From Rhizomys pruinosus (taxonomy: Eukaryota > Chordata > Mammalia > Rodentia > Spalacidae), in the NCBI GenBank assembly GCA_009823505.1, contig VZQC01008895.1, positions 650,833 to 714,832 of the forward strand: 64,000 bases of DNA. The letters run 5' to 3'. The notes under the pieces are model-generated. The model had not been told where the DNA came from. It did no database searches and worked only from the letters and a program-made list of their open reading frames with translations. Positions 9,913-64,000 of the stretch are shown in pieces. Position numbers and translations under genes: made by a program. Each line of letters opens with the position of its first letter. The stretch's first letter is position 1.

Positions 9913-10326
9913 CCTCCATTCTTCATATCCGGTCTCCCTTCCAGCAGTCATTTCTCTTTAACGAAACACACTTGGCATCTCCACTCTTCCCTAGGGGCTC
10001 AGGTTGCCCATCATCTCCCAGCGCGCCTCAGCAGCTGCGGATCTCCAAGCGCTTATGCCTGTACTTGTTCAACGCGCGGACGAGCTGAAAAGCCCCAAAT
10101 GGGGAACACTCTGTGACCTGTTATCAGAAGCCCCTTCTCTCCTTGAGAAGGGAAGGATGCTCAGCCTTGGCCTTAGTACGGAGGCAATCCTGTTAAGGAG
10201 CCAAGTGTGCGTCCGCTGCCATCCTAGGATAGGGGCAGGAGACCCAACTTTCTGGTATCTCCCGACCATCCCTGGAAGCAGCGGCTAGCTGGGGGAGGGA
10301 GACGGCGCCACTAACCGGCTACTCAC

Positions 10327-10592
10327 CCCTAGATGTACTCGCTTCCCTCGCAGGGGATCCGAGCAGTCCGTGCGCACTGGGTCAGCGAATCGCCTTGGTG
10401 TCTCACTCCTCTCCTGGGCAGCTCAGCGAAAGCTATGCGCTCGGAGCCCGGCGGCCGAGGGCAGCAGATCCCATGAGTGGGGAGTTGGCAGAGGGCGCGC
10501 AGCCGAGCTGGGGGCGCATCGCTCCTGGGGCTGGGGCTGGAGCAGGCTGCGGCGGAGAGAGGGGCTCCGGGGAAGTTGGCGGGGCTGGGCAC
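10327..10592 (-). other. Candidate minus-strand first exon with GTGAGT donor
   Basis: Read on the minus strand, the GC-rich sequence runs to 'catctaggg|gtgagtagcc', where the intron would begin at 10,326. GTGAGT is a perfect match to positions +1 to +6 of the donor consensus; the exon side (ggg) is only fair. The 5' limit is unknown; 10,592 is simply an ATG of an 87-codon frame that stops just at the junction, so the exon may be untranslated. Proposed from one splice signal and CpG context only. Confidence 0.35.
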
Positions 10593-10949
10593 AGACTTCG
10601 GACTTGGCGCCCGCTCGGCCCGGCGGCGGTGCGACCTCCGGGATGGGTAGATGCGGGACTTGCGGGTGGAAGGGCCGCCGGCGCGGGCCAGGAGGCTGCA
10701 GAAAGCGCCCCGGCCACCGCCTAGAAGAAGCGCAGCGGCATCGCGCTGCCCTCCGCGGTGGCAGGACCGAGGGCGAGCGACACTGCCCTGCTGCCTGCTT
10801 CCGACCGCGGACCCCCCCTCCTAGCTCAGAGCCGGTCTCGCTCCAGCCCGCTGCGCCGCGTCGGTCCCGTTCCCCACTGCGGCTTCGCCGGCTCTAGCGG
10901 CTCGGCTGGGGCGAGAGGCTGCGCGCGAGGCGGCCGCGGCTCCTGCAGC

Positions 10950-11165
10950 ATGGAGGGCGATCTCCCCGGCTCCGGCTCAGGCTCAGGCAGCAGCGGCCGC
11001 CGCCTCCCGCGCGCCCACGTGCCGGAGCCCCGGTGTGCGCGCTCCGGCTGGCGGGGCTGGGGAGCGCGGGCGAGGGCGAGCCTCGGGTGGGGGCGGCGGG
11101 GACAACCCGCACCCTGCGCGGCTCGGGAAGCTGCTGGCGGGCTCCAGGGAGCGCGGGGCTCCTAG
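10950..11165 (+). CDS. Possible plus-strand first coding exon, unrecognised
   Basis: An ATG at 10,950 sits in a strong context (A at -3, G at +4) within the CpG island. It opens a frame beginning MEGDLPGSGSGSGSSGRRLP, Gly/Ser-rich at first and then Arg-rich. The frame is also open upstream to 10,758. No recognised domain follows, and no strong plus-strand donor is seen before the stop at 11,165; weak candidates are gtgtgc after 11,032 and gtgggg after 11,086. It could be a true N-terminal exon with a non-consensus donor, or a chance frame in GC-rich DNA. Codon positions are all GC-rich, so composition cannot decide. Confidence 0.2.
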   Translation: MEGDLPGSGSGSGSSGRRLPRAHVPEPRCARSGWRGWGARARASLGWGRRGQPAPCAAREAAGGLQGARGS

Positions 11166-11290
11166 CTGGCAGCTCAGGAAGGCTGGCGAGCAGGGCTCCC
11201 TTTGCAGAGGGAAGAGGGAGCCCCAGCAAAACGCGAGGGGATGGAGGCGGGGAGGGGCGCCCTGCTCCTAAGGATCAGCCAGAGGTAGAG

Positions 11291-12006
11291 GTCCCCAGGA
11301 AGCTAGGTGTCTCAGCTGAAGGACGGGATCCAAATTCCTTCAACCCACTCGCTGCTCCTGGAGGGTAGGGTGGGAGTGAGGTTCAGAAAGAGTGAGGGAG
11401 TCTTTGGGTTCCCAGAGAGAGCTTGTTCCCCGGCTCGCCCCGCCTTCCACCCAGAGTAAGCACTTTTCCTGTTAACCAACAGACTCCAAAGGGGCGCCTC
11501 CTTCCAAAGAAAAGGGAGTTGGCTTGCTAGATGGCCTTGACACTCTCCAATCAACTGACACATAATTAGAGAGCACCCAGTTTGATGGAACAACGCATGG
11601 AGCACACACACCTTGGTAATTGGGAGTGTGGTATGTTCTCAGCTCCATAAACCCTTCACTCAGTCTGTCCAAGGCCTTTGCTGCCTCACCCTTAAAATGA
11701 GGTTCCCTCCTGCTGTGAGTAAGATAAGATACAAACAAACCCAACAAAACCGTGGGAGAATTTAAAAATGAGAAGGCAATTCAAAAGATGGGTGTTAGTG
11801 CTAACGGAAACATGATTAAAATAGGAAACATATGTTGGATAGAAAAATGAGCTCTGTAAAGAAATAAAATTAATGAACTGCATCATCCTCAATCATCACC
11901 ATAATGAATAAAGTGAGATTCAGATAAGATAAAAGGCTTGTCCCTGTTGTCACATTGTCACATGGTCACATGTCCTTTTGGTCAGACTCCACTCTGATAT
12001 CCTCCC

Positions 12007-27445: not shown

Positions 27446-29354
27446 GAAAATGCTATCTTTCCTCCATTGAGCTTTTTTGGCCCCTTTGTTGAATATGAGG
27501 TGGCTGAAATTATATGAGCTCAAATTTGGATCTTCCATTTTGTTCCATTGGTCAACAAGTCTGTTTTTGTGCCAGCACCAGGCTGTCTTTAGGACTATAG
27601 CCCTTTAATATAGCTTGAAGTCTGACACAGTGATCCCTCTGGTATTGCATTTTTTCACTCAGGGTTGCTTTAGCTATTCAGGGTCTTTTGTTTTCCCATA
27701 TGAATTTAAGGATTTTTTCCAAGTCTGTGAAGAAATTCATGGAGATTTTAATTGGGATTGCATTGAATCAGTATATTAATTTGGGTAGAATGTACATTTT
27801 TATTATATTAATTTTTCCTATCCATAAGCATGGGAGGTTTTTTTCCGTGTTTTAATGTCATCTTCAATCGCCTTCTTCAGGGGTTTAAAATTTTTGTTGT
27901 ACAGATATTCCTTGTCTTTGGTTAGGTTTGTTCCCAGGTGTTTTGTTTTGTTTTGTTTTGTTTTTGAGGCTATTGTGAGTGGGAAGGTCTCCTTATATTC
28001 CTTCTCCAGTTGCTTGCTGTTGGTGTAAAGCAAGGCTACTGATTTTTCTAGGTTAATTTTGTATCCTGCCACTTTATTGAAACTCTTAATCATTTCTAGG
28101 AGTTTTCTGGTTGAATTTTTGGCATTCCTTAAGTAAACTATCTCATCATCTGCAAAAAGGAATGGTTTGACTTCCTCTTTTGCAATTAGTAATCCTTTAA
28201 TTTCCTTTCCTTGATTTATTGCCCCAGTAAGCATTTCCAGCACTATATTGAAGAGGAGTGACAATATGGGACAGCCTTGTTGGGTTCCCACCTTTAAAGG
28301 GAATGCTTCTAATTTTTTTTCCCATTTATGATGATGTTGGCTATGAGTTTGTTGTATATGGCTTTGATTATAGTGAGGAATGTTCCCTTCAGTCCAATTC
28401 CCTCTAGAACTTTAAACATGAAGGGATGCTGGATCTTGACAAATGCTTTTTCTGCATCAGTTGAGATGATCATGTGATTTTTGTCTTTAATTCCATTTAT
28501 GTGTTTTATGATATTTATTGATTTATGTATGTTGAACCATCCTTCCATCTCTGATATGAATTCAACTTGGTCATGATGGATGATCTTTTTGATGTGGGTT
28601 GGTATGTGATTTGCAAGTATTTTGTTGAGAATGTTTGCATTTATATTCATCAATTATATGGGTCTATATTTTTCTTTTGGGGTTGTGTCTTTGCCTGGTT
28701 TTGGTATTAGATTGATGCTGGCTTCATTGAAGGAGTTTGGGAGATTTCCCTCTGTATCCTTCTGAATAGTTTGAGTAGTAATAGTTGTAAGACCTCTTTA
28801 AATGTTTTACAGAATTCTGATGTGAAACCATCTGGGCCTGGGCTGGTTTTATTTGGCAGGTTTTTTATTACATCTTCAATTTCCTCAAATGTTGTGGGCA
28901 TATTTAAACTGTCAATATCTTCTTGGTTTAGCTTTGTTGATTCCCAGGGTTTCAGATATTCATCCGTTTCTCTTAAGTTTTCAAATTTAGTACAGTACAG
29001 GTTTTTGAAATATTCTAGTATGATTATCTGGATCTTTTCTTTATTTGTTGTGATACTTCCCTTTTCATCATGAATGCTATTTATTTTGAGTTGCTCTTTC
29101 TTTCTTTTGGTTAACTGGGATAGAGGTCTGTCTATCTTGTTTATCTTTTCAAAGAACCATCTTTTGGATTTATTGATTTTTTTTGTTTTGTTTTCTTTGT
29201 TTCTATTTCATAGATTTCTGCTCTGATTTTTGTGATTTCTTCCTGTCTGTTGGGTTTAGGGTTCATTTTTTGTTGTCTCTCAAGCAGCAAGCAGCATTTT
29301 TTTTTTTTGCTGCAGTGTTAGATCTTTTATTTGTTCCCTTTCTGATTTTTTTGT

Positions 29355-34786: not shown

Positions 34787-35123
34787 TTGAATAAACAGCC
34801 CCCTGACATGCAGCTCTGAGAAAGTGTTGACTGAGCTAATGGAGAGGTGTAGTATGGACTGTCTCAGAAGCACCCAAGAGCAGGAATGGCCTGATTCACA
34901 TGCGAGTTGTAGATTCTGGAATGCAGCAAGCCTGAAGGATGATCTACATGGGTTTCCACAGTAGCCACAAAGAGCACATTTTGAAATTCTAAAAGAAGTT
35001 GTAATTATGGGTATTGGTTTTGACATGCTTATTGCTACCAATATGATTACTTTACTAAACAAAATGAAAGAAACAATGGAAGAAATGCATCTCTGTGATT
35101 AAACGTTTTACAAAGAAGAAAGT
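34785..35123. other. No gene or repeat recognised
   Basis: Unassigned sequence before a local tandem duplication. Confidence 0.5.
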
Positions 35124-35315
35124 TTTAAATTTAAGCAAAGTTTCATAATACAATATATAACCATATTATATATGATTTTATATCTACTGTATTCTACTGA
35201 TGTAGATATTAATTTTAATTTTAAATTTAAGCAAAGTTTCATAATACAATATATAACCATATTATATATGATTTTATATCTACTGTATTCTACTGACGTA
35301 GATATTAATTTTATT
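35124..35315. repeat. 96-bp local tandem duplication
   Basis: Two head-to-tail copies (35,124-35,219 and 35,220-35,315) of an AT-rich 96-bp segment. 'gcaaagtttcataatacaat' occurs at 35,135 and 35,231. The main difference I see is gatgtag versus gacgtag, so the duplication is recent. No repeat family is recognised within the unit. Confidence 0.95.
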
Positions 35316-42807: not shown

Positions 42808-43115
42808 TTTTTTCAAAGCCAATTTTTATTGAAGATTTGTGCATTTCATACGACATCTCAAATCAAATCTTGATCTATGCACCCTCCCTGCCCCCCCGCC
42901 CCACCAGAGCTCATGCATTCTGCCGAACATGTTTTTCATCTTTTTCTCGGTTTCTCTCAAAATTCTCAATGAAGAAGTTTACTGTTTTGAGCAGAAGATC
43001 ACCGTTTCAGTCAGTTCTTTGACTCAGTCTTGTTGTTGTTGTTGTAGTTGTTGTTATTCCTTCCAACATGCATCACTCCAAAATATGCATATATGCATGC
43101 CACATATATTATAGG
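42808..43115 (-). mobile_element. L1 3'-end fragment, minus strand
   Basis: Begins 'ttttttcaaagccaattttt' 'attgaagatttgtgcatttc', then 'agctcatgcattctgccgaa', a (TTG)n patch and 'tattccttccaacatgcatc'. The same L1 3' UTR order is seen at 25,577-25,850. It abuts the truncated ORF2 of the neighbouring L1. Confidence 0.8.
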
Positions 43116-49854: not shown

Positions 49855-50889
49855 CTCACTAGAGAAGTTTCCTTGTGCAGCAGATGGTGATTAATACAAA
49901 AACCCACAACATGCCAACATGCAAAGGGCAAGAGGCTGAAGAGTGCTTATTCCTGGACAGAATATCTATGTCAAACTTCTACCCCCCAAGGACCAGGGAT
50001 CACTGTGGAAGTGGGGATGGAAAGATTTAAGAGCCAGAGGTGGGGGCTGACCAGAAGGAAACAGCATACAAAACAGCTGGTCAGTTAGTGGTATGCCCTT
50101 ACAGCAATAGGGACAAGGTGTATAAATAGGAATGTTCAAATGAGCCCAAACCAGAAAAAAAAGTCCAAGCACAGACAAGAGGAGGTGGGTAAAAAGCTCC
50201 AACCCCACCTAAGAAAATGGTGGCAAGAGATGGATGGGAGGGACAGAGACAGTCTCTCTCAAGCAATTTTATTCGACTATGAAGAATGAAATTATGGCAT
50301 TTCCAGAAAGAAATGGATAGAGTGGGAAGTTATTTTAAGTGAAATAAAACCATATGTAGAAAGATATTGATCACATTTTCTCTCACATATGAAATATAAA
50401 TTTAATGTGTGTGTGTGTGATTCTTCTAAAAGTAGAAAGGGGATGCTGATGAAAAGAAAGAAATATCAAGGGAGGTGGGGGGTGAACAATGAAAGTAACC
50501 AATGTGGGGACTGGAGAGATGGCCTAGCGGTTAAGAGTGCCGACCACTCTTACAGAGGACCTGGGTTCAATCCCCAGCACCCACATGGCGGCCGAGAACC
50601 ATCTGAAACTCCAATTCCAGGAGAACTCCAGTTCCAGGGAAATCCGAGACCCTCTTCTGACCTCCGCGGCATTGCACGACACGGGTGCACAAACTTGCAT
50701 GCAGACAGTACATTTAAACACATACAGAAATAAATAAAATTAATAATAAAAAATAATTTAAAAAAAGAAAGTAACCAATGTATATGACATGAAAGCAGAA
50801 GGATGGACTACTTAGGGAAAGAGATTTGATCAGCAACAGGTTGGATAGGGGACAGGGCAGGCCAGTGGGGAGCAAGTAAAAACAAAGTA
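49855..50889 (+). mobile_element. Old L1 (Lx-like) 3' region, split by a B2
   Basis: 'aaacttctaccccccaagga', 'gatggaaagatttaagagcc', 'agaaatggatagagtgggaa', 'cacattttctctcacatatg' and 'ggataggggacagggcagg' follow the 3' UTR of Lx-type rodent L1s. It ends at an AT microsatellite. From about 50,625 rightward it belongs to the left arm of the large inverted repeat. Confidence 0.65.
50506..50766 (+). repeat. Young B2 SINE
   Basis: Young variant with doubled block and long A/T tail. Exact target-site duplication gaaagtaaccaatgt at 50,491-50,505 and 50,767-50,781. A noisy reverse copy lies at the far right edge of the window. Confidence 0.95.
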
Positions 50890-50893
50890 TATA

Positions 50894-50929
<36 letters not shown>
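50890..50929. repeat. (AT)n microsatellite
   Basis: About 40 bases of AT dinucleotide. Mirrored at about 63,675-63,712. Confidence 0.95.
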
Positions 50930-50931
<2 letters not shown>

Positions 50932-50949
50932 CACTCATATGAATAATGC

Positions 50950-51062
50950 CATTTTTTGTTTTTTTTTTCAAAGCCAATCTTTATTGAAGCTATGTGCATT
51001 TCATACAAAATTTCAAATCAACTCTAGACCTGTGCCCCCCTCTGTGCCCCCCAATCCCATCA
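50950..51062 (-). mobile_element. L1 3'-end fragment, minus strand
   Basis: 'ttcaaagccaatctttattg' 'aagctatgtgcatttcatac' then C-rich sequence ending 'atcagagcta': the same L1 3' end as at 42,808, truncated after about 110 bases. Confidence 0.8.
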
Positions 51063-51117
51063 GAGCTAGAATGCCATTTCTGGATACTATTTTTAAATAG
51101 CCATAAGGAAAAAAAAA

Positions 51118-51195
51118 ACAGTAGTGTTTAATGGTAGAGCAATGCTTGGCTGCATAGACTTTGGGTTTGATCTCTAGTACCAGAATCACTAACTA
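51118..51195 (+). repeat. B4/ID-like fragment
   Basis: 'tttaatggtagagcaatgct' 'tggctgcatag' and 'gggtttgatctctagtacca' resemble the tRNA-like head of a B4 or ID element. Confidence 0.45.
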
Positions 51196-52495
51196 AATAA
51201 ATATGCATGCTCTTACTGAAGATGTGTTGCTTATGGGAATATATTATGTTCTTTAGATGTCTGGTGAGGAAACTAATGATATCTGATTGGATATAATGAA
51301 TGAGCTGATGTTCAAGTAGCAATGATGCCTAAAACTTAAGTTCCTTGAAAGATATCTAAGTCCTTTGATGGAACAGGGAATCAAATGTGGTTGGGGAATA
51401 TGCATAATAAAATAATGGAGACTAGACTTGCAACTTTTTACAAATTAACATATCAAAATAATTTCATTTGTAGCAAGCTAGGGTTTATTATTAATAAGAA
51501 GTTGGTTGATTTATTGTTTAGGTCACAAATTAGATAGCCTAAGATAGTTATATAAATGTGTTTACATATAAATATGTTTACAGATTCCTATACAGTGTAT
51601 GTATATGAATTTAGTACTAAAAGAGAATTGATACTGAAATTTATAAAATCATGAAAAAGTTTTGCACATTTCAGTATCTTGGGTGATATTTCCATTTGTA
51701 TTAAATCAAAGAAGCATTCTTCTTAGGATCATATAAGCCAAGAATGCCAGTCCTGTGTCTTGAGATCACCTTGATGACTATTTGAGCATTAGTTCTCCCT
51801 CCCTATATAGTTTTTCTGATGTGAGGCCACAGAGAAGCATCACATAGGCTTCCTGCATGGGGGCATTCTTACTTTATGAATCTTGCCTTCCCAAGATAGA
51901 AGCCAGAATCATTTTTTCAGGCTCTTTAAACTAGGCTAGGCCTTTGATCAAGACTTTGTCAAGACTGGGCTGCCTAGGAGCTAGGAGATGACTGACAGTT
52001 AAGACCACGCAGTGCTGCTTATTCAAAGCACAATTATCTTAACTGCTATTACAAACATTCAGAGAACACAGCATACCTAGGAGCAAGATAGAGAGAAACC
52101 AACAGAGGTATTACATAAACCAGGGGATGGCAAGCCATAGTCTCCAGTGCCAAATCTAACCCTCCACATGTTTTGGTACAGTTCATGGAGTAAGAATTAC
52201 TTTTACATTAGGAAGGCAATTACAAAGATTCTATGATTCAAACCCAGTATCTATAAATAAAGTTCTATTGACACACAGCCATGGTTATCATTTTATTTTT
52301 ATATAAAGCCATTGTGCTACAATAGAAAAGCTGAGTAGTTATGACAAATTTCTTACTCTCCACAAACACAAAACATTTATTTTCTGCCCTCTTACCAAGG
52401 AAGTTTGCCACTATGGAATCAAAAGGAGACCCAGAACATTTGTTCTTATAATAATAAGGAAACTTTCTCTTGCCTCATTCTAAACCCCAAACAGT
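51196..52495. other. No gene or repeat recognised
   Basis: AT-rich unassigned sequence within the left arm; it reappears with errors at about 61,900-63,380. Confidence 0.5.
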
Positions 52496-52575
52496 GCTGG
52501 GTGTGGAGGTGCACATCTTTAATCCCAGCACTCAAGTGAGGTAGATCTCTTTGAGATCTAGGCCATCTACATGCA
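52496..52575 (+). repeat. Truncated B1 SINE
   Basis: 'gctgggtgtggaggtgcaca' 'tctttaatcccagcactcaa' then 'tttgagatctaggccatcta': a 3'-truncated B1. Confidence 0.8.
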
Positions 52576-52626
52576 TTTGATTTTGAATTGAAGTTTGCTT
52601 GCTGAGCATTCAGAAATCTTTTTTTT

Positions 52627-52866
52627 TATTAATTTTATTTATTTATTGTATGTGTATGAATGTACTGTCTGCATGCAAGTCTGTGCACCCGTGTCGTGCA
52701 ACGCCGCGGAGGTCAGAAGAGGGTCTCGGATTCCCCTGGAACTGGAGTTCTCCTGGAATTGGAGTTTTAGACTGTTCTCGGCCACCATGTGGGTGCTGGG
52801 GATCGAACCCGGGTCCTCTGTAAGAGCGGTCGGCGCTCTTAACCGCTAGGCCATCTCTCTAGCCCC
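52627..52866 (-). repeat. Young B2 SINE, minus strand
   Basis: Young variant in reverse with doubled block. Exact target-site duplication cagaaatcttttttt at 52,611-52,625 and 52,867-52,881. Its mirror at 61,499-61,790 is heavily garbled. Confidence 0.95.
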
Positions 52867-52881
52867 CAGAAATCTTTTTTT

Positions 52882-53279
52882 TTTTTAAGATTCCATTTTA
52901 GGATGGGAACCCTGGGAAATCCAGGTAAGAAGTGCAATGCTGGCCCAGAACTGGCTCCAAGGAGATCAGCTTAGTCCATAGATCAAACCCGTTGATATTT
53001 TCATGATCTCTGGTTTTGTAACATTCACACTTCCTAGTCGGACAAGATCCTGCATTAGTTACTTGAGATAAAAGATGTCATAATGGAAACAACCAAGTAA
53101 AATTTTTGAACTAGTTAAGATGGTAAATAAAAAATCAACACATTATCCCATGGCAGAATGAGCATAGCAAAAATTAATGCCAACTTTTAGATATAAAAGA
53201 TGGCAGAGACAGTGAAAAGGCAACTCCTCATTTAATTAACAAATTCAAGTTTCATTCCTCCCCTATAGAAACTGTATAG
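52882..53279. other. No gene or repeat recognised
   Basis: Unassigned; mirrored near 61,080-61,480. Confidence 0.5.
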
Positions 53280-53500
53280 CTTGGGCGAAGGTTCATTTGG
53301 TAAAGTGCTGTTCAAGCCTGAAATCCCATGTCTGATGATGTAGAGAAAAGAGGGTCTCTGGGGCTGGATGGCCAGCCAGTCTAGCCAAATCAGCAAGCTC
53401 CAGATTCAGAGAGACCCTGCCTCAAAAAACAATGTGGAGAATGATTGAGGAAGACATCCAAAGATGATCTCTGTCTTCCACAGGCAGATGCACCTCTGTG
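53280..53500 (+). repeat. B3-like SINE
   Basis: 'tggtaaagtgctgttcaagc', 'ctggatggccagccagtcta' 'gccaaatc' and 'gagaccctgcctcaaaaaac' 'aatgtggaga' match the order of the reversed copies at 2,459 and 19,975. Confidence 0.65.
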
Positions 53501-53689
53501 CCAGTCCAACCCTGCCCACCAACATGAATGCAGAGAAAGTGGGTCCCAAGTTGTAGGAGTGGCCTATAATAAGCTCAATTATTGATTCACAATTATTAGC
53601 TTCAATTAGCATTTATTACTCAAAAACTGGTGATCTGATAGATTAAGACATGCAATAGATTCAATGGCCTGGAAAATGTGTTCATTCCA

Positions 53690-54575
53690 GCCCTATTGTG
53701 ACAGTGACATAGAAACAGACATGGAGAGCAAGAAAATTGTGGACTAAGAAATAAGCCCAGTTGTCTACAGCCATGTGATTCTCCATAAATGTATCAAAAA
53801 GTCTCTGAAGAAAAGACAATCTCATTATAAAATTCACACAGAGGGAAATCCAGAGAAAGAAGACTGAAAGTAGATTCTAATATCTCAAACTATACAAAAA
53901 TAAAGTAAAAGAATATTAAAGATGTTAGTGTGTGACTTAAATTCCAAATCTATAAGAAAAACTTAAGCCAAACCTTTCAAGATAGAGGTATAGGCAAAAA
54001 CATTTTGAATAACAAGAAATAACAAAAATTTAAAAATGAGATTAAATGAAATTTGACAGCTCTTCACAGAAAAGTAAATAATTAGGAGAATAAAGAGACA
54101 ATCTATAGAATAGGACAAAAAAATCTTTGCTACTGATTCATTGGAGAGGAGATCAATACCTGGAATAAAAAGTCAAAAGATGGAAACATCCCAAAATTCA
54201 AATACCTAATAAAAAACTGAGTGACGGAAATGAGCAGATACCTTTTTAAAAGTACATGTGGCCAATAAATACAATGATATACTTCAACACCTTTAGTTAT
54301 TGGGGAAATACAAATCAAAACCAGATCATGATTTCATCTCACAACAATCAGAATGTCTATCACCAAGAAAGCAAACAATATATCAATCAATACAGAGAAT
54401 CGGGAGAAAGGGACCTCTATTCACTGTTTATGGGATGTAAATTAGCCTAGCTGTTATGGAAATCAGTATATGCTCTCTACCAAAATAAAAATAGACTCAC
54501 TGCATGATCCATTGGTCTCCATTACTTTACTAATCCCTCTGGCCAAATATCTTATAAGCAACTTAAGAGAGTATG
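53690..54575 (+). mobile_element. Old L1 ORF2 fragment
   Basis: 'gagaaaagacaatctcatt'-like sequence, 'gatagaggtataggcaaaaa', 'gtacatgtggccaataaata', 'gggaaatacaaatcaaaacc' and 'tagctgttatggaaatcagt' follow L1 ORF2 C-terminal order with heavy decay. Confidence 0.75.
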
Positions 54576-54930
54576 GTAGTTAATCTTGATTGTCAGTGTT
54601 ATAGGATTTAGAATTTCTAGAAGGTGTACCTTACTGGAAAGTTTTAATTAAGGAGGAAAGATCAACCCTGAACGTGCCCAGAACCATTCCATGGATGGGG
54701 GTCTCTAGACTGAATAAAAACAAGAAAGTCAGCTGAGCACCAGAACGCCCCTCTTTCTGCCTGCTGACTGGGGCACGATGCATGTAACATGTTGTCTCCT
54801 GTTCTCACCACCTCCCTGTCAGGATGAATTGGATCCCTTCTTAAAATGTGAGCCAAAGTGAACTCTTCTTTCTTTAAATGGCTCCTATCAAGTATTTTGT
54901 CACAGCAATGTGAAAAAAAATGACAAACAG
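54576..54930 (+). repeat. Rodent LTR-like interspersed repeat
   Basis: Opens 'ggtagttaatcttgattgtc', continues 'gatcaaccctgaacgtgccc' and 'gactgaataaaaacaagaaa', and ends 'caagtattttgtcacagcaa' 'tgtgaaaaaaaatgac'. This order is common to an abundant rodent repeat with a MaLR-like ending. Family is not fixed. Confidence 0.55.
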
Positions 54931-55619
54931 AAAATTAGCACTAGGGAATGGGTTTTTTTGCTGTGATAAACCTGACCATGTTATCCATAGGCTTTTGGAA
55001 TGGATTCCTAAGAGAATGAGGGAGAGTTTAGAACTGCAGGCTATCAAAGACTTAGAACACGTGAGCAGAGAGTAATCGGCCATTCTGGTAGGAGTTAGAG
55101 CACCAGGGTGTTCAGAGAAATGTCCCCTGTGAAGGCCCAGCTCATGGAGTTTCAAAGAGAAACAAAGACATTGCAGAACTGAGGAACTGAGCAGAGACCT
55201 TTCATCCTGTGCTCTGGACAACAATCCGGCTGCATTCTGCAATGCCCTGAAAAATGGAGGGCAGGTGAAATCAAGAGCAAAAGATGATTTATTTGGCACA
55301 GGAAATTTCAAGACAATAAGACATTTGCCCTGTGGTACAGTTACTGCTCATAGCTCTCAATCAGATCTACAGTATGAAAGAACACAAAGACTGGACAATG
55401 TAGAATTTAGTGAGGATAGCACTGTAAGTTTATAGTTGTACATGAGGAGGACATAGACAAAGCATCTCTAATTGTTAAAGACGTGAGTAGCATTAGAAAA
55501 AAAAACTCACATGCCCATCACATTGGAGCAACAGAGCAAGACCCACTCCTTGACAGATCCTACTGTGCAAATGGAAGTCCATCTGAAAGGGTGAGAGCCT
55601 GAATTGAGAGTGCAGGTGT
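54931..55619. other. No gene or repeat recognised
   Basis: Unassigned. The minus-strand 145-codon frame at 54,874-55,311 starts inside unassigned DNA and has no recognised domain. Its mirror in the right arm is broken. Confidence 0.5.
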
Positions 55620-55965
55620 CCTCATTGGCTTTCTGCTGCTGTGATAAACACTGACAAAAGGCAACTCACGGAGGAAAGGCTTTATTTTATTTTACAGCCT
55701 ACCATCCATCATCAAGGGAAGCCAAAGCAGAAACTTACTTGAGACAGAAACTGAAGCAGAAACCATGGAGGAACGATGCTTACCAGAGTGCTCAGCTACT
55801 TCTCTTACACAATTCATGTCCACCTGCCCATCGTTCAGCAACCAATAAAATGTCTCTCAAACATTCCCACAGGCCAGTGTGATGAAGGAAGTTTCTCAGC
55901 TGAGGTTCCCGCTTCCCTGGTGACTCTCTTTTGAGTCAGGTTGGCAAAAACTATCAAACACAGTA
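55620..55965 (+). repeat. Rodent interspersed repeat, family unassigned
   Basis: 'tttctgctgctgtgataaac' 'actgacaaaaggcaactc', 'accatggaggaacgatgctt', 'cccacaggccagtgtgatga' and 'gagtcaggttggcaaaaact' are in the order of a very common rodent repeat related in style to the one at 39,563. Confidence 0.6.
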
Positions 55966-56151
55966 CCTAAAGAAATTCCCTGCTCAAAAACAACTGCCTA
56001 GCAAAGAATTTTCCCAGGTTCAACCACAAAGGCACTCAGGAGTCCTTGCAGCTTGGGTCCAGCCTGGGCTTTACATTGTGCTGACAGCAGAACTCTCACT
56101 TGAGTACTCTAGGAAGTAGGAGAGAGACATATAGGTAAAAGAGGGGCTAGT

Positions 56152-56390
56152 GGGGCTGGAGAGTCAGCCTAGTGGTTAGGAGCACCGACTGCTCTTGCAG
56201 AGGACCCGGGTTCGATCCCCAGCACCCACATGGCGGCTGAGAACCGTCTGTAACTCCAATTCCAGGAGAACTCCAGTTCCAAGGGAATCCGATGCTCTCT
56301 TCTGACCTCCGCGGCATTGCACGACACAGGTGCACAAACCTACATGCACACAGTACATTCATACACATAAAAAAAAGAAAGAAAGAAAAA
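56152..56390 (+). repeat. Young B2 SINE
   Basis: Young variant with doubled block. Exact target-site duplication aaaagaggggctagt at 56,137-56,151 and 56,391-56,405. Mirrored, with errors, at 57,548-57,806. Confidence 0.95.
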
Positions 56391-56539
56391 AAAAGAGGGG
56401 CTAGTACAGTTGTGGGATAGGGAAAGGAAGGAGGCAAAGGAAATATAAATCTAATAGGGGTATGTATATGACCAAAGGGTATTACATTCATGTACAAAAA
56501 TGTCATGATAAAACCCATTAGTTTTCAAAGATTTACTTT

Positions 56540-56748
56540 TGTTCATTAATTGTGTGTCTCTGTGTGAAGGAAGGTCTGTGCACACTGAGTACAGGGCTCA
56601 TGGGATCCAGAAGAGAATTTCAGATCCTGTGGAACAGGAATTAGAGGTGGTTGTGATTAGCTAGATCCAGATGTTGGCAACTAAACAGTGGTCTTCTGTG
56701 AGAGCAGGAAGAGCTTTTAATCACTGAAGCCATCTGGCCTGTCCCCAA
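56540..56748 (-). repeat. Older B2 SINE, minus strand
   Basis: 'gtctgtgcacactgagtaca', 'agatcctgtggaacaggaat' 'tagaggtggttgtga' and 'ttaatcactgaagccatctg' are reversed B2 with only one 'aattcctgttcc' segment, lacking the 17-bp duplication. Confidence 0.7.
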
Positions 56749-56785
56749 ATTGCTGATGCTTTGTAACTGATATAAAAAGAAAACT

Positions 56786-56803
56786 AGAGAGAGAGAGAGG
56801 AAG

Positions 56804-56839
<36 letters not shown>
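56786..56839. repeat. (GA)n microsatellite at the apex edge
   Basis: About 54 bases of GA repeats with two interruptions. The inverted repeat turns around just beyond it. Confidence 0.95.
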
Positions 56840-56842
<3 letters not shown>

Positions 56843-57114
56843 CTACACTCCCCTTCCCTTCCCATTCCCTTCCTTCGCACTTACTTGGCGCCTTCCGTCC
56901 CCTTCCCTTCCCTCCCCCTCCCCTTCCGCCTGCAGCCCCTTCCCCGTGGTTCCCGTTTCTTTTAAGAAAAGCTTTGCTTTGTTACCTCGTCTTTTTCTTT
57001 TCTCTCCTCTCCCCTCTCGTCCTTCCTCGTCTCCTCTTCCTCGCTCATCCCAGTCTCTCTCTCGCTTCGCGCTACTGCACTCTCAGACACGTCTTCTCTA
57101 TTTGCTCCTCTCTC
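56796..57114. other. Apex of the inverted repeat: pyrimidine-rich, unpaired
   Basis: About 320 bases of C/T-rich sequence (gatccctacactccccttcc onward) with no clean match in either arm. Its right part (agtctctctctcgcttcgcg to 'tctctatctcttcag') looks like a garbled reverse copy of the GA tract on the left. It would be the turn-around point of a fold-back read or the spacer of a palindrome. Confidence 0.8.
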
Positions 57115-57547
57115 TATCTCTTCAGTCGATTCTTTCTATTTTTATATCAGTTTACAAAGCATCAGCAATTTGGGGCACGGCCAGATGGCTTCGGATATCA
57201 ACCTCCTGCTCTCACAAGAAGACCTAGCTGTTGTAAGTTGCCAACATCTGGATCTAGTAATCAAAAAAAACAACCACCTCTAATTCCTGTTCCACAGGAT
57301 CTGAATTCTCTTCTGATGCCATGGAGTCCCTGTACTCAGTGGTGCACAGAACCTTGCCTTCACACGAGACAACACAATTATTGAACAAAATAACGCATCT
57401 TTGAAAACTAATGGGTTGTTTATATCATGGACTTTTTGTACATGAATTAAATCCCTTTGGCCATAGTACATACCCGCTATTAGAGCTTTTATATTTCCTT
57501 TGCCTCCGTTCCGTTCCCTATCCCACAACTGTACTGAGCACCCTCTT

Positions 57548-57806
57548 TTTTTTTTTCTTTCTTCTTTTTTTTGTAGTGTATGGAATGTGTACTGGGGGGG
57601 GGGGGTTGATGTCAGTATTGTGCGACCTGTTCGTTGGCAAGCGCACGGAAGTCAGACAGTAGCATCGTATTCCCTGGAACTGGAGTTTCTCCTGGGAATT
57701 GGAGGTTACAGAACGGTTTCAGCCGCCATGTGGGGTGGTGGTTGAGAACTGGGCCCTCTGCAAGCAGTGGGGTAGCTCTGAACCACTAGGCTGCTCTCCA
57801 GCCCCA
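57548..57806 (-). repeat. Garbled mirror of the B2 at 56,152
   Basis: 'ctggaactggagtttctcct' 'gggaattggagg', 'agccgccatgtggggtggtg' and 'aaccactaggctgctctcca' 'gcccc' are the young B2 in reverse with many small insertions. It includes 12 consecutive G (57,594-57,605) absent from the clean copy. Confidence 0.9.
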
Positions 57807-57989
57807 CAGCACCCTCTTTTACCTATATGTCTCTCTCCTACTTCCTAGGTAAGTACTCAAGTGGATTTCTGCTGTCAGCACAATGTAAAGCCCAGGCTGG
57901 AGCCCAAGCGTGCAAGGACTCCTGAGTGGGCCTTTGTGGTTGACCCTGGGAAAATGTCTTTGCGTAGGGCAGTTGTTTTTGAGCAGGGA

Positions 57990-58530
57990 ATTTCTTTAGG
58001 TACTGTGTTTGATAGGTTTTTGCCAACCTGACTCAACAGAGAGTCCCAGGGAATGTGGAACAAAAGTCAGCTGGGGAGTAGAGGAGGGGAGAGAAGAGGG
58101 GGGGGGGAGGGGGAGGAGAAGGGGGAGGGGGGGTAGGGGGGGGGGGGGGGGAGGGGGGGAGAAGGGGAAGGGAGAATGGACAGGAGGAAAGGGGGAAGGC
58201 TCGGGAGATACATGTGAAGGAGAGCAAGATGAGTACTATCAGTCACACTTGGCCTGTGCTAATTAGTTTGAGATGACATTGTTATTGTTTTGGAGGGAAA
58301 CTGAACGATGGGGCATGAGACATGAAGGTTGTGATAAGAGAGTAGCGTGGAGCATACATTGGTGATTAGCCATGCGTTTCCTCCCATGGTTTGGTCTGTC
58401 TTACATATTGCGTGTCTCGAAGTGTAAGTTTCTGCTTTGTGTCTTCCAATGCTGATGACGGATGGTAGGCTGTAAAATAAAATAAAGCCTTTCTCTCCGT
58501 GAGGTTGCCTTTGTCAGTGTTTATCACAGC
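57990..58530 (-). repeat. Garbled mirror of the repeat at 55,620
   Basis: 'ttgccaacctgactcaacag' at the left and 'aaataaagcctttctctccg' then 'cagtgtttatcacagcagca' at the right mirror the clean repeat. The middle is replaced by a purine-rich block and unmatched words. Confidence 0.85.
58081..58200. repeat. G-rich block with a 16-G run
   Basis: Nearly pure G/A over about 120 bases, with 16 consecutive G at 58,136-58,151. No counterpart exists at the matching position of the left arm (around 55,850-55,900). Confidence 0.95.
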
Positions 58531-59279
58531 AGCAGCAAAGCGCAGTGGGACACCTGCACGCCTCTGCATTCAGGAGGAGCTCTCACCTTTCAGATGGACT
58601 AGGGGGTGCCATTTGCACAGTAGGATCTGTCAAGGAGTGGGTCTTGCTCTGTTGCTCCAATGTGATGGGCATGTGAGTTTTTTTTTCTAATGCTACTCAC
58701 GTCTTTAACAATTAGAGATGCTTTGTCTATGTCCTCCTCATGTACAACTATAAACTTACAGTGCTATCCTCACTAAATTCTACATTGTCCAGTCTTTGTG
58801 TTCTTTCATACTGTAGATCTGATTGAGAGCTATGAGCAGTAACTGTACCACAGGGCAAATGTCTTATTGTCTTGAAATTTCCTGTGCCAAACAAATATCT
58901 TTTGCTCTTGATTTCACCTGCCCTCCATTTTTCAGGGCATTGCAGAATGCAGCCGGATTGTTGTCCAGAACACAGGATGAAAGGTCTCTGCTCAGGTGTA
59001 GTCCTCAGTTCTGCAATGTCTTTGTTTTCTCTTTGAAAACTCCATGACTGGAGCCTTCACAGGGGACAGTTCTCTGGAAGCACCCTGGTGCTCTAACTCC
59101 TCACCAGAATGGGCCGATTACTCTCTGCTGCAGTGTGTTACGTAAGGGTCGTTGATAGCCTGCAGTTCTAAACTCTCCCTCATTCTCTTAGGAATCCATT
59201 CCAAAAGCCTATGTATAACATGGTCAGGGTTTATCACAGCAACAAAACATGAAACCATTCCCTAGGTAGCTTAATTTTC

Positions 59280-59640
59280 TGTTTGTCAATGTTTTGTTTC
59301 ACATATGCTGTACAAAATACTTGATAAGAGGAGCAACTTTAAAGAAAGAAGAGAATTTTGTCACTTATGGCTCACATTTTAAGAAGGGATGCCATTCATA
59401 GCCTGACAAGGAAGAGGTGGTGAGAACAGGGAGACAACATGTTACATGCATCGTGGCCCCAGTCAGCAGCAGAAAGAGGGCGTCTGGTGCTCAGCATGAC
59501 TTGCTGATTGTTTTTATTCAGTCTAGAGACCCCCATCCATGGAATGGTTCTGGGCACGTTCAGGGTTGATCTTTCCTCCTTAATTAAAACTTTCCAGTAA
59601 GGTACACCTTCTAGAAATTCTAAATCCTATTTTCAACAAC
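59280..59640 (-). repeat. Mirror of the LTR-like repeat at 54,576
   Basis: Reverse complement of 54,576-54,930, for example 'ccatccatggaatggttctg' and 'gttcagggttgatctttcct', with scattered changes. Confidence 0.9.
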
Positions 59641-60440
59641 AAATGACAATCAAGATTAACTACCATACTCTCTTAAGTTGCTTATAAGATATTTGGCCAG
59701 AGGGATTAGTAAAGTAATGGAGACCAATGGATCATGCAGTGAGTCTATTTTTATTTTGGTAGAGAGCATATACTGATTTCCATAACAGCTAGGCTAATTT
59801 ACATCCCATAAACAGTGAATAGAGGTCCCTTTCTCCCGATATTCATCTGTATGTGATTGATATATTGTTTGCTTTCTTGGTGATAGACATGTCTGATTGT
59901 TGTGAGAGTGGAACTCATGATCTGGTTTTGATTTGGATACTTTCCCCATAACTAAAGTGTGTTGAAAAGTATATCATTGTATTTTATGGCGCACATGTAC
60001 TTTTAAAAAGGTATCTGCTCATTTCCGTCACTCAGTTTTTTATTAGGTATTTGAATTTTGGGATGTTTCCATCTTTTGACTTTTTATCCAGGTATTGATC
60101 TACCTCCCAATGAATCAGTAGCAAAGATTTGTTGTTCATTTCATGGAGGTCTACTCTAGATTGTCTCTTCTAGATAATGATACTTTTGTCGATTTGAAGA
60201 CTTCAAAATTCAGTTTAATCTACATTTTTGGGTAAATTTTTTTTATGTGGGGATCTTGTTATCAAAATGTTTTTGCCTATACCTCTATCTTGAAAGGTTT
60301 GGCTTAAGTTTTTCTTATAGATTTGGAATTTAAGGAGTAAAAGGACAGCACAGCTGAAATCTTTAATATTCTTTTACTTTATTTTGTATCAGTTGAGATA
60401 AGAAATCTACTTTCAGTCTTCGTATTCGTCTGGAGGTTGT
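59641..60440 (-). repeat. Mirror of the old L1 fragment at 53,690
   Basis: 'acataactgattt'-like and 'ttttgcctatacctctatct' 'tgaaaggtttggcttaag' match the clean arm in reverse. Several patches, e.g. near 60,340, are scrambled. Confidence 0.88.
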
Positions 60441-60829
60441 CGCTCTGTGTGGTAGTTGTTATAAGTGAGGGGATTGGTGCTAAAATTAATGACTTCAAAG
60501 ACTATGAATTGATACATTTAAATGGAGAACTACGTGCTGTTAGACAACATGGTGCGTTGAAATTTCTTAGTACCACAATTGTTCTTGGCTCTCCGATGTC
60601 TGTTTCTTATGTCACTGGTCACAAATAGGGCGGTGGAGATGAACACAGTTTTCCAGGCCATTGAATCTATTGCGGTCTTGTCTAGTCAGATCACCAGATG
60701 TTATTGAGATAATAAATGCTAATTGAACTATAATTGGAATCAATATTGAGCTATTATAGCCACTCCTACACTTGGAACCACACTTTCGCTCTGCAGTTGC
60801 ATGTTGGTGGGCAGGGTTGGGATGGCACA

Positions 60830-61060
60830 GAGGGTGCAATCGGCCCTGTGGAGACAGAAGTATGCATCTTTGGATGTCGTTCTCAAATCAGTCTCCAGCA
60901 TTGTTTTTTGAGGCAGGTCTCCTCTGAACTGGGCTTGCTGAATTTGGCGAGACTGGCTGGCCTGGCCGCCCCCGAGAGCCTCATTGTTCTCTACATAGCA
61001 TCAGACTATGTGGGATTTCAGGCATTTGAACGGCACTATTAACAAATAACCTCGCCCAAC
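60830..61060 (-). repeat. Garbled mirror of the B3-like SINE at 53,280
   Basis: The clean element's reverse complement is only partly recognisable ('ttgttttttgaggcaggtct', 'gactggctggcctggccgcc'). The 102-codon frame at 60,734-61,042 arises from this noisy sequence and is not a gene. Confidence 0.75.
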
Positions 61061-61498
61061 TAATACAAGTTTCTATAGGGGAGGAATGAAACTTGAATTT
61101 GTTAATTAAATGAGGAGTTGCCTTTTCACTGTCTCTGCCATCTTTTATATCTAAAAGTTGGCATTAATTTTTGCTATGCTCATTCTGCCATGGGATAATG
61201 TGTTGATTTTTTATTTACCATCTTAACTAGTTCAAAAATTTTACTTGGTTGTTTCCATTATGACATCTTTTATCTCAAGTAACTAATGCAGGATCTTGTC
61301 CGACTAGGAAGTGTGAATGTTACAAAACCAGAGATCATGAAAATATCAACGGGTTTGATCTATGGACTAAGCTGATCTCCTTGGAGCCAGTTCTGGCTAC
61401 ACGCATGGGGTGCGGACTTCTGTAGCCGGGGGGGATGATGGATTTCCCAGGGTTCGCCATCCTAAAATGGAATCTTAAAGAAGAAAAAAAGATTTCTG

Positions 61499-61790
61499 GG
61501 GGCTGAGAGAGGATGGCGGCATAGAGGCGGTTAAGAGCGTCCGACCCAGCTCTTTAAACAGGAGGACCGGGGAGTTCGAATCCCCAGCACGCCACATGGT
61601 GGCCGAGAAGAGCCAGCTCTGAAAACTCCAATTCCAGGAGAAACTCCAGTCTCCATGGTGGATCCGCGAGTACCCTCTTGCTAGACCTCCGGCGGCGTTG
61701 CACGATACACGGTGGTGCACAGACTTGCAGCAGATGCAGACCAGACAGTCTTCATACAGCATACAATAAATAATAAAATAATAAAAAAAA
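61499..61790 (+). repeat. Garbled mirror of the B2 at 52,627
   Basis: About 50 bases longer than the clean copy through scattered one- to few-base insertions ('ggctgagagaggatggcggc' for the usual ggctggagagatggcc; 'caggaggaccggggagttcg' for aggacccgggttcg). Confidence 0.92.
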
Positions 61791-63529
61791 CAAGATTCTG
61801 AATCTCAGCAGCAAAGCGTCATTCCAACTCAAATGCTGTCGTTGGCCTTATCTCACTGGATCTCCCAATCACTGTGGAGTGCTGGGATTGAAAGAAAATG
61901 TTGCGAACCAGATCAACACACCCGAGGCATGTTTTTAAGGGGTTTAGAATTAAGGCAAGAGAAAGTTTCCCTTATTAAATGATAAGAAAAATGTTCGGGG
62001 TCCTCCGTTTGAGGTCGGCGATAGTGGCAACGTCCGATTGGTAAAGAGGGCAGAAAAAAAAGAAAAAAGGAAAAATAAACATGTTTTGTTTTTGGTGGAG
62101 GGAGTAAAGAAATGGGTGTCAGGGAACGCACTCAGGGCGGTTTCTATGGGTAGCCCAATGGCGTTGAAGAAAAATAAAAGGAGAACCATGCTGTGTGTCC
62201 AATAGAGAATTTATTGTACAGTAGATACTGAAGAAAGGGGGTGTATAAATGGAAAATCATAGAATCATATTTGGTAATTGCATTCCGCCTGTAACAAAGT
62301 AATTCTTACTCCTGACGGTACCAAAACATGGTGTAGGGTTTAGATTTGGCACTGGAACTATGGCTTTGCCATCCCCATGGGTTTAGTAATAAGTCTGTTG
62401 GTTTCTCGCTATCTTGCTCATAGGTATGCTGAGGGAGAAGGAGAGTGTGTTCTCTGATTTTGGGGTCTAGCAAAGTGTAAGATAATTGTGGCTTATGAGA
62501 TAAAGCAGCACGCGTGGTCTTAACGGTCAGTCAGTCTCCTAGCTGCCTAGCAGCCCAGTCATTAAACAAAGTCTTGATGCAAGAGGCCCTAGCGCTAGTT
62601 CAAGAGCCTGAAAAAAGGAGTGGGGTTCTGCGCTTTATCGGGTGGGAAGGCAAGATTCATAGATTAAGAAGGCCGGCCCATGCAAGGAAGCCTATTGATG
62701 CTTCTCTTTGGCTCACATCAGAAAAAACTATATAGGGGAGGGAAAACTAAGTGAGGATCAGGATATCAGGGTCAGAGTGTATCTCGACCAGGACTTGGCA
62801 ATTCCGTGGCTTATGTGATCGCAAGAGAAGTGGAGGATTGCTTCTTGGATTTAAGTAAGGAAATGGAAATAATCACCAAGATACTGAAGTGATCAAAACT
62901 TGTTTCATGATTTTATAAATTTGCATATCAATTTCTCTTTTTGTACTAAATGCATATACATACACTGTAATAAAAAGTGAATCTTAAACATATTTATATG
63001 TAAACACATTTATATAACTATCTTAGGCTATCTAATTTGTGACCTAAACAATAAATCAACCAACTTCTTATTAATAATAAACCCTAGCTTGCTACAAATG
63101 AAATTATTTTGATATGTTAATTTTGTAAAAAGTGTGCAAGTCTAGTCTGGCCATTATTTTATGATCATGATTCCCTCGCCCAAACCACAGTTGGTGGGTT
63201 AGCCCTGTTTCCACAAGGACTTAGAGTCTTTTCAAGGAACTTAAGGTTTTAGCATCATTAGCTACTTGAACCAATGCTCATTCATTTATCCAAAATCAAT
63301 ATCGAGTATTTTCTACCAGACATCTAAAGAACATAATATATTCCCATAAGCAACACATCTTCAGTAAGAGCATGCATATTTATTTAGTTAGTGATTCTGG
63401 TACTAGAGATCAAACCCAAGTCCTATGCAGCCAAGCAAGTTGGCGCGACCAGTAAACACTACTGTTGTTTTTTTCCTTATGGCATAGTTAAAAAGAGTAG
63501 CCAGAAATGCAGTTCTAAGGCTCTGATGG

Positions 63530-63645
63530 AGATGGGTGGGGCACAAGTGGGGCAAGGTCAGAGTTGAAATGTTGGTAAATTGGGTGTGGTATGAAGGGAT
63601 GCACAAGCGGGTCAATAAAGAATTGGCTTGTGGAAAAAAAAAACA
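63530..63645 (+). repeat. Garbled mirror of the L1 3' end at 50,950
   Basis: 'ggatgcacaagcgggtcaat' and 'aaagaattggcttgtggaaa' echo the reversed L1 3' end with many changes. Confidence 0.7.
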
Positions 63646-63856
63646 AACAATGGGCATTATTTCATATGAGTGTTTCATATATATATATATATATCTATAA
63701 TATATAATATTGATAGTACTTTTGTTTTTACTTGCGTTAATTACTTGCTCCCCACTGGCCTGCCCTGTCGCCCTATCCCAGACCTGTTTGCTGATCAAAT
63801 CTCTTCCATAAGTAGCCGGATCCGTTCTGCTTTCATGTCATATACATTGGTTACTT

Positions 63857-63858
<2 letters not shown>

Positions 63859-63911
<53 letters not shown>
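63859..63911. repeat. 53-base T homopolymer
   Basis: Uninterrupted run of T replacing the mixed A/T tail of the B2 at the mirrored position (about 50,720-50,766). Confidence 0.97.
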
Positions 63912-63913
<2 letters not shown>

Positions 63914-64000
63914 CTACATGTATGTAAGTGGTTTTGTGTTGTGCAATGCCGCGAGGTCAGCAGAGGGAAGAGATCGGCAGAGGTCTTGTCCCTGGAACGG
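63912..64000 (-). repeat. Garbled mirror of the B2 at 50,506, cut by the window end
   Basis: 'ttttgtgttgtgcaatgccg' 'cgaggtcagcagaggg' and 'gtccctggaacgg' are the reversed young B2 with gaps and insertions. Confidence 0.9.

Follow-up and report, generated by a model that had tools for sequence, protein, structure and literature searches.

A giant inverted repeat at the end of a Rhizomys pruinosus sequence window: very probably an assembly artefact rather than a chromosomal palindrome

The window analysed here (the whole stretch of 64,000 nt; Rhizomys pruinosus assembly GCA_009823505.1, contig VZQC01008895.1, positions 650,833 to 714,832 of the forward strand) ends in a long stretch that repeats its neighbour in reverse-complement order. 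Does the chromosome carry a palindrome at this locus, or did the assembly produce one? The giant inverted repeat claimed in an earlier note was borne out by both self-BLAST and a gap-tolerant alignment. The left arm (50628..56839, + strand) is of polished quality and terminates in an (AG)n microsatellite (56786-56839, from the tandem-repeat listing). An apex spacer of 214 nt (56840..57053) without counterpart in the left arm separates it from the right arm (57054..64000, - strand), the reverse complement of the left, which reaches the window end and is cut there. Self-BLAST returned two inverted matches in collinear order, 50650-55882 to 63967-58243 (83.4%, 5,222 bits) and 55905-56813 to 58061-57095 (83.6%, 869 bits); among the matches listed, the runner-up inverted match by length is a repeat pair of 900 columns at 80.6%. 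The gap-tolerant alignment of 50628-56839 with 64000-57054 contains 5,884 matches and 150 mismatches, and the right arm has 913 bases extra and 178 missing. The resulting net gain of about 0.73 kb agrees with the excess of roughly 0.7 kb claimed before, and the drifting sum of paired coordinates was likewise recovered (55450+58733=114183; 50939+63665=114604). The gap between the two BLAST pieces is a low-complexity insertion burst in the right arm (58061..58243, - strand; G/A-rich on the + strand), which faces just 22 unaligned left-arm bases (55883-55904) and includes one 102-nt insert; its inserted sequence is 97% C+T in the reverse orientation, and tandem-repeat rows are found at 58096-58172.

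Chromosomal palindromes of the mammalian Y type are homogenised by gene conversion. In having long inverted arms and a short spacer the repeat resembles such chromosomal palindromes, as they are described in passages of PMC7023750; unlike them, it has differences of the sequencing-error type confined to one arm. We used HMM segmentation followed by an exact string check to define the similarity between the arms at a higher resolution. The right arm turned out to be a mosaic, in which nine islands of 72-328 bp (1,415 bp in total) show no difference from the left arm. All of them lie on the - strand: 63315..63419 (left 51161-51265), 62985..63123 (left 51442-51580), 61069..61396 (left 52945-53272; the longest, 328 bp), 60263..60334 (left 53936-54007), 59992..60087 (left 54165-54260), 59644..59840 (left 54399-54595), 59509..59630 (left 54601-54722), 58897..58969 (left 55213-55285) and 58609..58891 (left 55292-55574). 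A two-state model describes the arm better than uniform error (log-likelihood -2220 vs -2332), and when the positions of the differences were shuffled 1,000 times, no perfect run was longer than 108, vs 328 observed. There is no intermediate state; the islands stand beside patches with events at about 14% per column. In the noisy part (4,797 left-arm bases) 3.1% of the bases are substituted, 3.7% missing and 19.0% inserted overall, or 14.8% inserted without runs of 10 or more. Perfect islands within raw sequence are what a patchily corrected fill should contain. The earlier description of one polished and one unpolished arm thus holds for the left arm but not for the right, which is not uniformly unpolished.

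Patchy identity between long arms lying close together could also arise if a large palindrome were genuine and its right arm were decaying, with gene conversion keeping some patches identical. The lack of anything between 0 differences in 1,415 bp and about 14% events per column speaks against this, and so does the kind of difference seen in the diverged patches. For comparison we took 35 pairs of natural repeats from the part of the window left of 50.6 kb. These pairs share repeat copies and hence are not independent; pairs were dropped if they had fewer than 150 columns, an E-value above 1e-20 or fewer than 40 distinct trinucleotides, or if they touched sequence right of 50,600. With the same aligner and scoring, the arms differ by 356 substitutions and 397 gap events (a ratio of 0.90), vs a ratio of 3.0 or more in each of the natural pairs; the ratio depends on scoring, and cheap gaps bring the controls as low as 0.53 and the arms to 0.25. 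Transitions and transversions number 87:269 in the arms vs 1189:715 in the natural pairs under this common scoring, and the gap-tolerant alignment likewise gives 120 transversions to 30 transitions.

The right arm has 447 insertion events vs 149 deletion events. It also contains 119 CpGs, vs 44 in the left arm, a gain confined to the noisy part (37 to 112; 7 and 7 in the islands). The observed/expected CpG ratio is 0.185 in the left arm, similar to most of the sequence elsewhere in the window apart from the CpG island, and 0.394 in the right arm, a rise that runs opposite to mammalian CpG decay. The differences are strand-biased as well: on one strand, single-base insertions add C 155 times vs G 26 times, A>C changes number 47 vs 18 for T>G (p = 4e-4 for this asymmetry), and the 913 inserted bases include 446 C and 282 T in the reverse orientation. 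Small insertions and homopolymer runs had been named as the main differences; insertions do dominate, but homopolymer extension is a minority, since only 111 of the 303 one-base insertions repeat an adjacent base. Homopolymer error alone was rejected as the main account on this count.

A SINE in the left arm (52619..52868, + strand), which we take to be a B2 element in agreement with the earlier label, has its right-arm copy at 61497-61790. We polarised the arm differences in three SINE copies by pairwise alignment, with the consensus of seven copies from elsewhere than the arms as reference: the right arm holds the derived state at 106 of 108 differences and the left arm at 2. The differences of a genuine palindrome should be spread across both arms, and the claim that they fall on one side is upheld within these copies for all but two differences. 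In the wider window, an Rfam search gave no match at gathering thresholds, and Pfam gave one match, a reverse transcriptase, in five open frames.

Taken as a whole, the arm differences are unlike those that evolution leaves. The transition excess, CpG loss and preponderance of substitutions over indels expected of natural mutation are not what is observed; transversions prevail 4:1, indels outnumber substitutions, CpGs are gained, strands are biased and one arm only is affected. We rejected the decaying natural palindrome on the error spectrum, the CpG gain and the one-sided derivation, and consider it extremely improbable. We also rejected an origin of the islands by gene conversion, because the intervening stretches are not naturally mutated.

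Another possibility is a genuine palindrome that is very young or fully homogenised, with at least 6-7 kb per arm and its centre at the (AG)n tract, and whose second arm was poorly sequenced, from raw long reads only. Islands without any difference from the left arm are compatible with a second copy almost identical to the first, and the sequence by itself is in keeping with this reading; however, such islands are predicted in any case had the correction been made with short reads of the left locus. Two coincidences would also be needed: a 7-kb inverted duplication with practically no divergence, and the failure to polish exactly one arm, starting at a microsatellite. We regard such a palindrome as quite improbable.

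The single-pass indel spectrum, the one-sided derivation, the CpG gain and the strand asymmetry all support an artefact. Judged from these sequence features, the inverted repeat is very probably a product of assembly and not a chromosomal palindrome, and the last 7 kb of the window almost certainly reproduce the adjoining stretch as raw long-read sequence full of errors, inserted backwards by the assembly. The right arm would then represent no second genomic locus but a single-pass, insertion-rich long read of the left-arm locus, probably a PacBio CLR read. The accurate contig probably ended at the microsatellite (56839), where the read would have been attached to the left sequence the wrong way round; correction would have followed in patches only, where short reads could be placed. 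Published passages provide precedents for several of these steps: raw, uncorrected read portions are retained beside corrected ones (PMC4580222), mammalian assemblies have been treated with PBJelly and then polished with Pilon (PMC5689209), and duplicated sequence diverts reads, which leaves one copy unpolished (PMC8081667).

As to the platform, the noisy stretches have the properties of single-pass PacBio CLR sequence in their error of about 15%, skewed towards insertions and with few substitutions. The PBJelly paper uses 9/4/2% for PacBio RS reads, with insertions at 9% (PMC3504050), a value that the right-arm insertion rate exceeds. Raw CLR data for N. crassa, where deletions (8.8%) exceed insertions (2.9%) according to an excerpt of PMC5964698, show the reverse of the right-arm noise. 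PacBio errors are called 'genuinely random' in a passage of a review (PMC4719071), which counts against this platform given the C/T bias of the inserted bases in reverse orientation; our literature search on base bias of PacBio insertions found no paper. Since this bias departs from the random errors expected, the platform is assigned only tentatively. Nanopore reads are likewise from single molecules, and they too are prone to fold-back. In early Nanopore data, however, deletions were about double the insertions in the account of PMC4719071, vs the insertion excess here, and we consider Nanopore an improbable source.

The apex bears on how the copy came to be reversed. The junction probably lies at about 56839/56840. 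The spacer is pyrimidine-rich on the + strand (83% C+T; C 100, T 78, G 21, A 15), and is self-complementary over 16 nt only; the apex is asymmetric. In composition (C 47%, T 36% on the + strand) the spacer is similar to the inserted bases, yet those are C/T-rich on the opposite strand. The spacer may be true purine-tract sequence beyond the left arm seen once, or else base-calling noise. A strict fold-back, in which both arms and the apex come from one molecule, either a SMRTbell read whose hairpin adapter was overlooked or one that switched strands, would have the geometry observed. Had an adapter been missed, about 45 nt of it would be expected at the centre. In the spacer we found no adapter-like stretch beyond the shuffle range (23 of 300 shuffles were as good), although unpolished noise could blur an adapter. 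The best-scoring alignment (56782-56815; 42.0, top of 638 window tiles, the next being 40.4 at 34.6-34.7 kb) is the (AG)n tract of the left arm, outside the spacer, and the repetitive adapter core occurs in the window at 43032-43035 only. Moreover, an out-and-back read should cross its apex twice, and the spacer is present once. Seeing the spacer once is also expected of a palindrome, and is thus non-discriminating for a very young one.

Reads of the required kind are on record: about 1% of PacBio reads have missed adapters (PMC3504050), up to 3% retain adapters and are termed siameric (PMC4580222), and palindromic reads make up 0.5% of unamplified control data (PMC6218980). PBJelly, however, is said to split missed-adapter reads (PMC3504050), a point against the fold-back. 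Siameric reads are like the present case in joining two opposite-strand copies of one locus end to end with about 15% insertion-skewed error (PMC3504050, PMC4580222), and unlike it in that the spacer here contains no adapter-like sequence, the 214-nt apex is asymmetric and one arm is polished. The strict fold-back is a serious possibility, though we would stop somewhat short of calling it probable. The fold-back artefact proposed earlier accordingly stands as an artefact, while the missed-adapter or strand-switch cause is a candidate only.

The asymmetry of the 214-nt apex would be accounted for as well or better by the backward join of an ordinary read than by a fold-back. Within the artefact reading, the asymmetric apex and the lack of an adapter-like match in the spacer mildly favour such a backward join of an ordinary opposite-strand read or contig, which we hold to be somewhat probable; use of a fold-back (missed-adapter) read to extend the contig or fill a gap is nearly so. 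Gap filling or contig extension with raw long reads, polished in patches by short reads (PBJelly with Pilon or Proovread), is a close analogue, its product being accurate up to a simple repeat and then noisy with perfect islands; such pipelines keep uncorrected read portions (passages of PMC4580222 and PMC5689209). Unlike a usual gap fill, the fill here turns back over its own flank and not into new sequence. Homotype false duplications at contig boundaries in VGP assemblies are similar in being error or contig-end duplicates with one copy unpolished as reads map to the other (PMC8081667); according to the figure legend their copies are tandem with a gap between, whereas the copy here is inverted and joined without Ns.

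The inverted repeat is of no importance as biology, and the right arm should be removed and not studied as a natural palindrome. Such stretches put false duplicated exons, SINEs, frameshifts and false palindromes into a reference. The signature combines insertion-rich sequence interrupted by perfect islands, a gain of CpGs, a strand bias of the insertions and one-sided derivation; it can be read from an assembly alone, without reads, and this would make scans across genomes possible.

The final 13.4 kb of the window form a large inverted repeat. Comparison of the window with itself using BLAST returned two inverted matches, 50650-55882 to 63967-58243 (83.4% over 5,812 columns) and 55905-56813 to 58061-57095 (83.6% over 991 columns). 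In local alignment with cheap gaps the matching span grows to 50628-56839 (left arm) versus 64000-57054 (right arm), with 5,884 matches and 150 mismatches; the right arm has 913 bases that the left lacks (447 events), and the left has 178 that the right lacks (149 events). The length of the right arm is a minimum, as it runs to the window end. A spacer of 214 nt (56840-57053) separates the arms. The arm coordinates proposed in an earlier note, and the drifting sum of matched coordinates described there, were reproduced.

Elsewhere, the window has a distinct CpG island at 10001-12000 (GC 0.612, CpG o/e 0.71), which suggests a promoter; the sole open frame tested there (10825-11271) had no Pfam match. 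An open frame at 27818-28411 (− strand) matches Pfam RVT_1 (3.3e-12) and would fit a LINE-type element; other repeat pairs, such as the inverted pair 35784-36658/44376-45261 (80.6%), may be of the same kind. At 35123-35313 a 96-bp unit occurs twice in tandem, the copies being 98% alike, which indicates a recent small duplication.

Along its length, the right arm is a mosaic of perfect and noisy sequence. Segmentation of the arm alignment by a two-state hidden Markov model delineated nine stretches with zero differences (72 to 328 bp each, 1,415 bp in total), separated by noisy stretches that average 14.3% difference events per column. The longest run without a difference measures 328, compared with at most 108 when the difference positions were shuffled 1,000 times. 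Relative to 4,797 left bases, the noisy part has 3.1% substituted, 3.7% missing and 19.0% inserted bases (14.8% once runs of 10 or more are excluded). A G/A-rich burst at 58061-58243 includes an insertion of 102 nt, facing 22 bases of the left arm that stay unaligned; the inserted bases are 97% C+T in reverse orientation. This is probably a base-calling burst; alternatively, the left arm may hold a collapsed simple repeat.

The differences between the arms are not evolutionary. Under BLAST scoring there are 356 substitutions versus 397 gap events (0.90 per event), whereas 35 natural repeat pairs left of 50.6 kb, used as controls, show 1,904 versus 162, the lowest single pair having 3.0. With cheap gaps the contrast is reduced but persists (0.25 versus 1.94, or 1,267 to 652, with a minimum of 0.53). 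Between the arms, the transition to transversion ratio is 30:120 with cheap gaps or 87:269 with BLAST, as against 1,189:715 for the controls. Natural decay would lower CpG numbers in a mammalian genome already depleted of them, yet CpG dinucleotides rise from 44 in the left arm to 119 in the right, the gain being confined to the noisy part (37 to 112; 7 and 7 in the error-free stretches). Among single insertions, read in left-arm direction, C (155) leads T (76), A (46) and G (26), and there are 47 A>C substitutions to 18 T>G. Asymmetry of this kind fits the sequencing of a single strand and not double-stranded inheritance.

The left arm carries three SINE copies, putatively B2 elements (the name used in the earlier note) of rodent origin. 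When arm differences within them were polarised by the consensus of 7 SINE copies elsewhere in the window, the right arm had the derived state at 106 of 108 (59 gains, 24 losses and 23 substitutions) and the left arm at 2. Therefore, the right arm descends from left-arm sequence and not the reverse. Since the left-arm copies also deviate from the consensus about as much as other copies do, sequence quality in the left arm is normal.

The left arm terminates in a clean (AG)n tract (56786-56839), which would be a typical stopping point for a short-read contig. Alignment of the SMRTbell adapter to 56781-57140 revealed no adapter-like stretch in the spacer. The best alignment (score 38.2, equalled by 23 of 300 dinucleotide shuffles) lies outside it, at 56782-56815 within the (AG)n tract. 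Because of the same tract, 56701-56900 ranks top (42.0) among 638 window tiles; the runner-up (40.4), near 34.7 kb, is a plain (AG)n tract. The spacer (C 100, T 78, G 21, A 15) resembles the right-arm inserted bases in make-up, but on the opposite strand: it is pyrimidine-biased on the + strand, whereas they are purine-biased. The two are therefore probably not the same noise. In the simplest reading, the spacer would be a purine tract following (AG)n in the true locus, read once from the opposite strand, so that the right side would be an ordinary opposite-strand read joined backwards. A fold-back read, in which one molecule runs out and back, should traverse the apex twice, but nothing in the left arm corresponds to the spacer. 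PBJelly is described as splitting missed-adapter reads (PMC3504050), a point against the fold-back version. The backward join appears slightly favoured.

In the most likely course of events, an accurate contig would have stopped at the microsatellite and been extended or bridged by a raw long read from the contig's own locus, folded back or wrongly oriented. Short reads originating from the left locus would then have corrected only the patches where they could be placed. Each element has published precedent. About 1% of reads have missed adapters (PMC3504050); up to 3% retain adapters ('siameric' reads), and uncorrected raw portions are kept alongside corrected ones in gap filling (PMC4580222). 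Unamplified data contain 0.5% palindromic reads (PMC6218980). Filling by PBJelly has been followed by polishing with Pilon, in which more insertions than deletions were corrected (PMC5689209), and a duplicate can draw reads away, leaving its twin unpolished (PMC8081667). Against an artefact, the C/T-biased insertions clash with a review calling PacBio errors random (PMC4719071), and deletions outnumber insertions in raw N. crassa data (PMC5964698). A real palindrome with nearly identical arms, the second of them poorly sequenced, retains a low probability on the sequence alone. Judged from the window sequence alone, the error spectrum, strand asymmetry, CpG gain and right-arm derivation uphold the artefact proposed earlier: the inverted repeat is very probably an assembly artefact, ordinary in kind.
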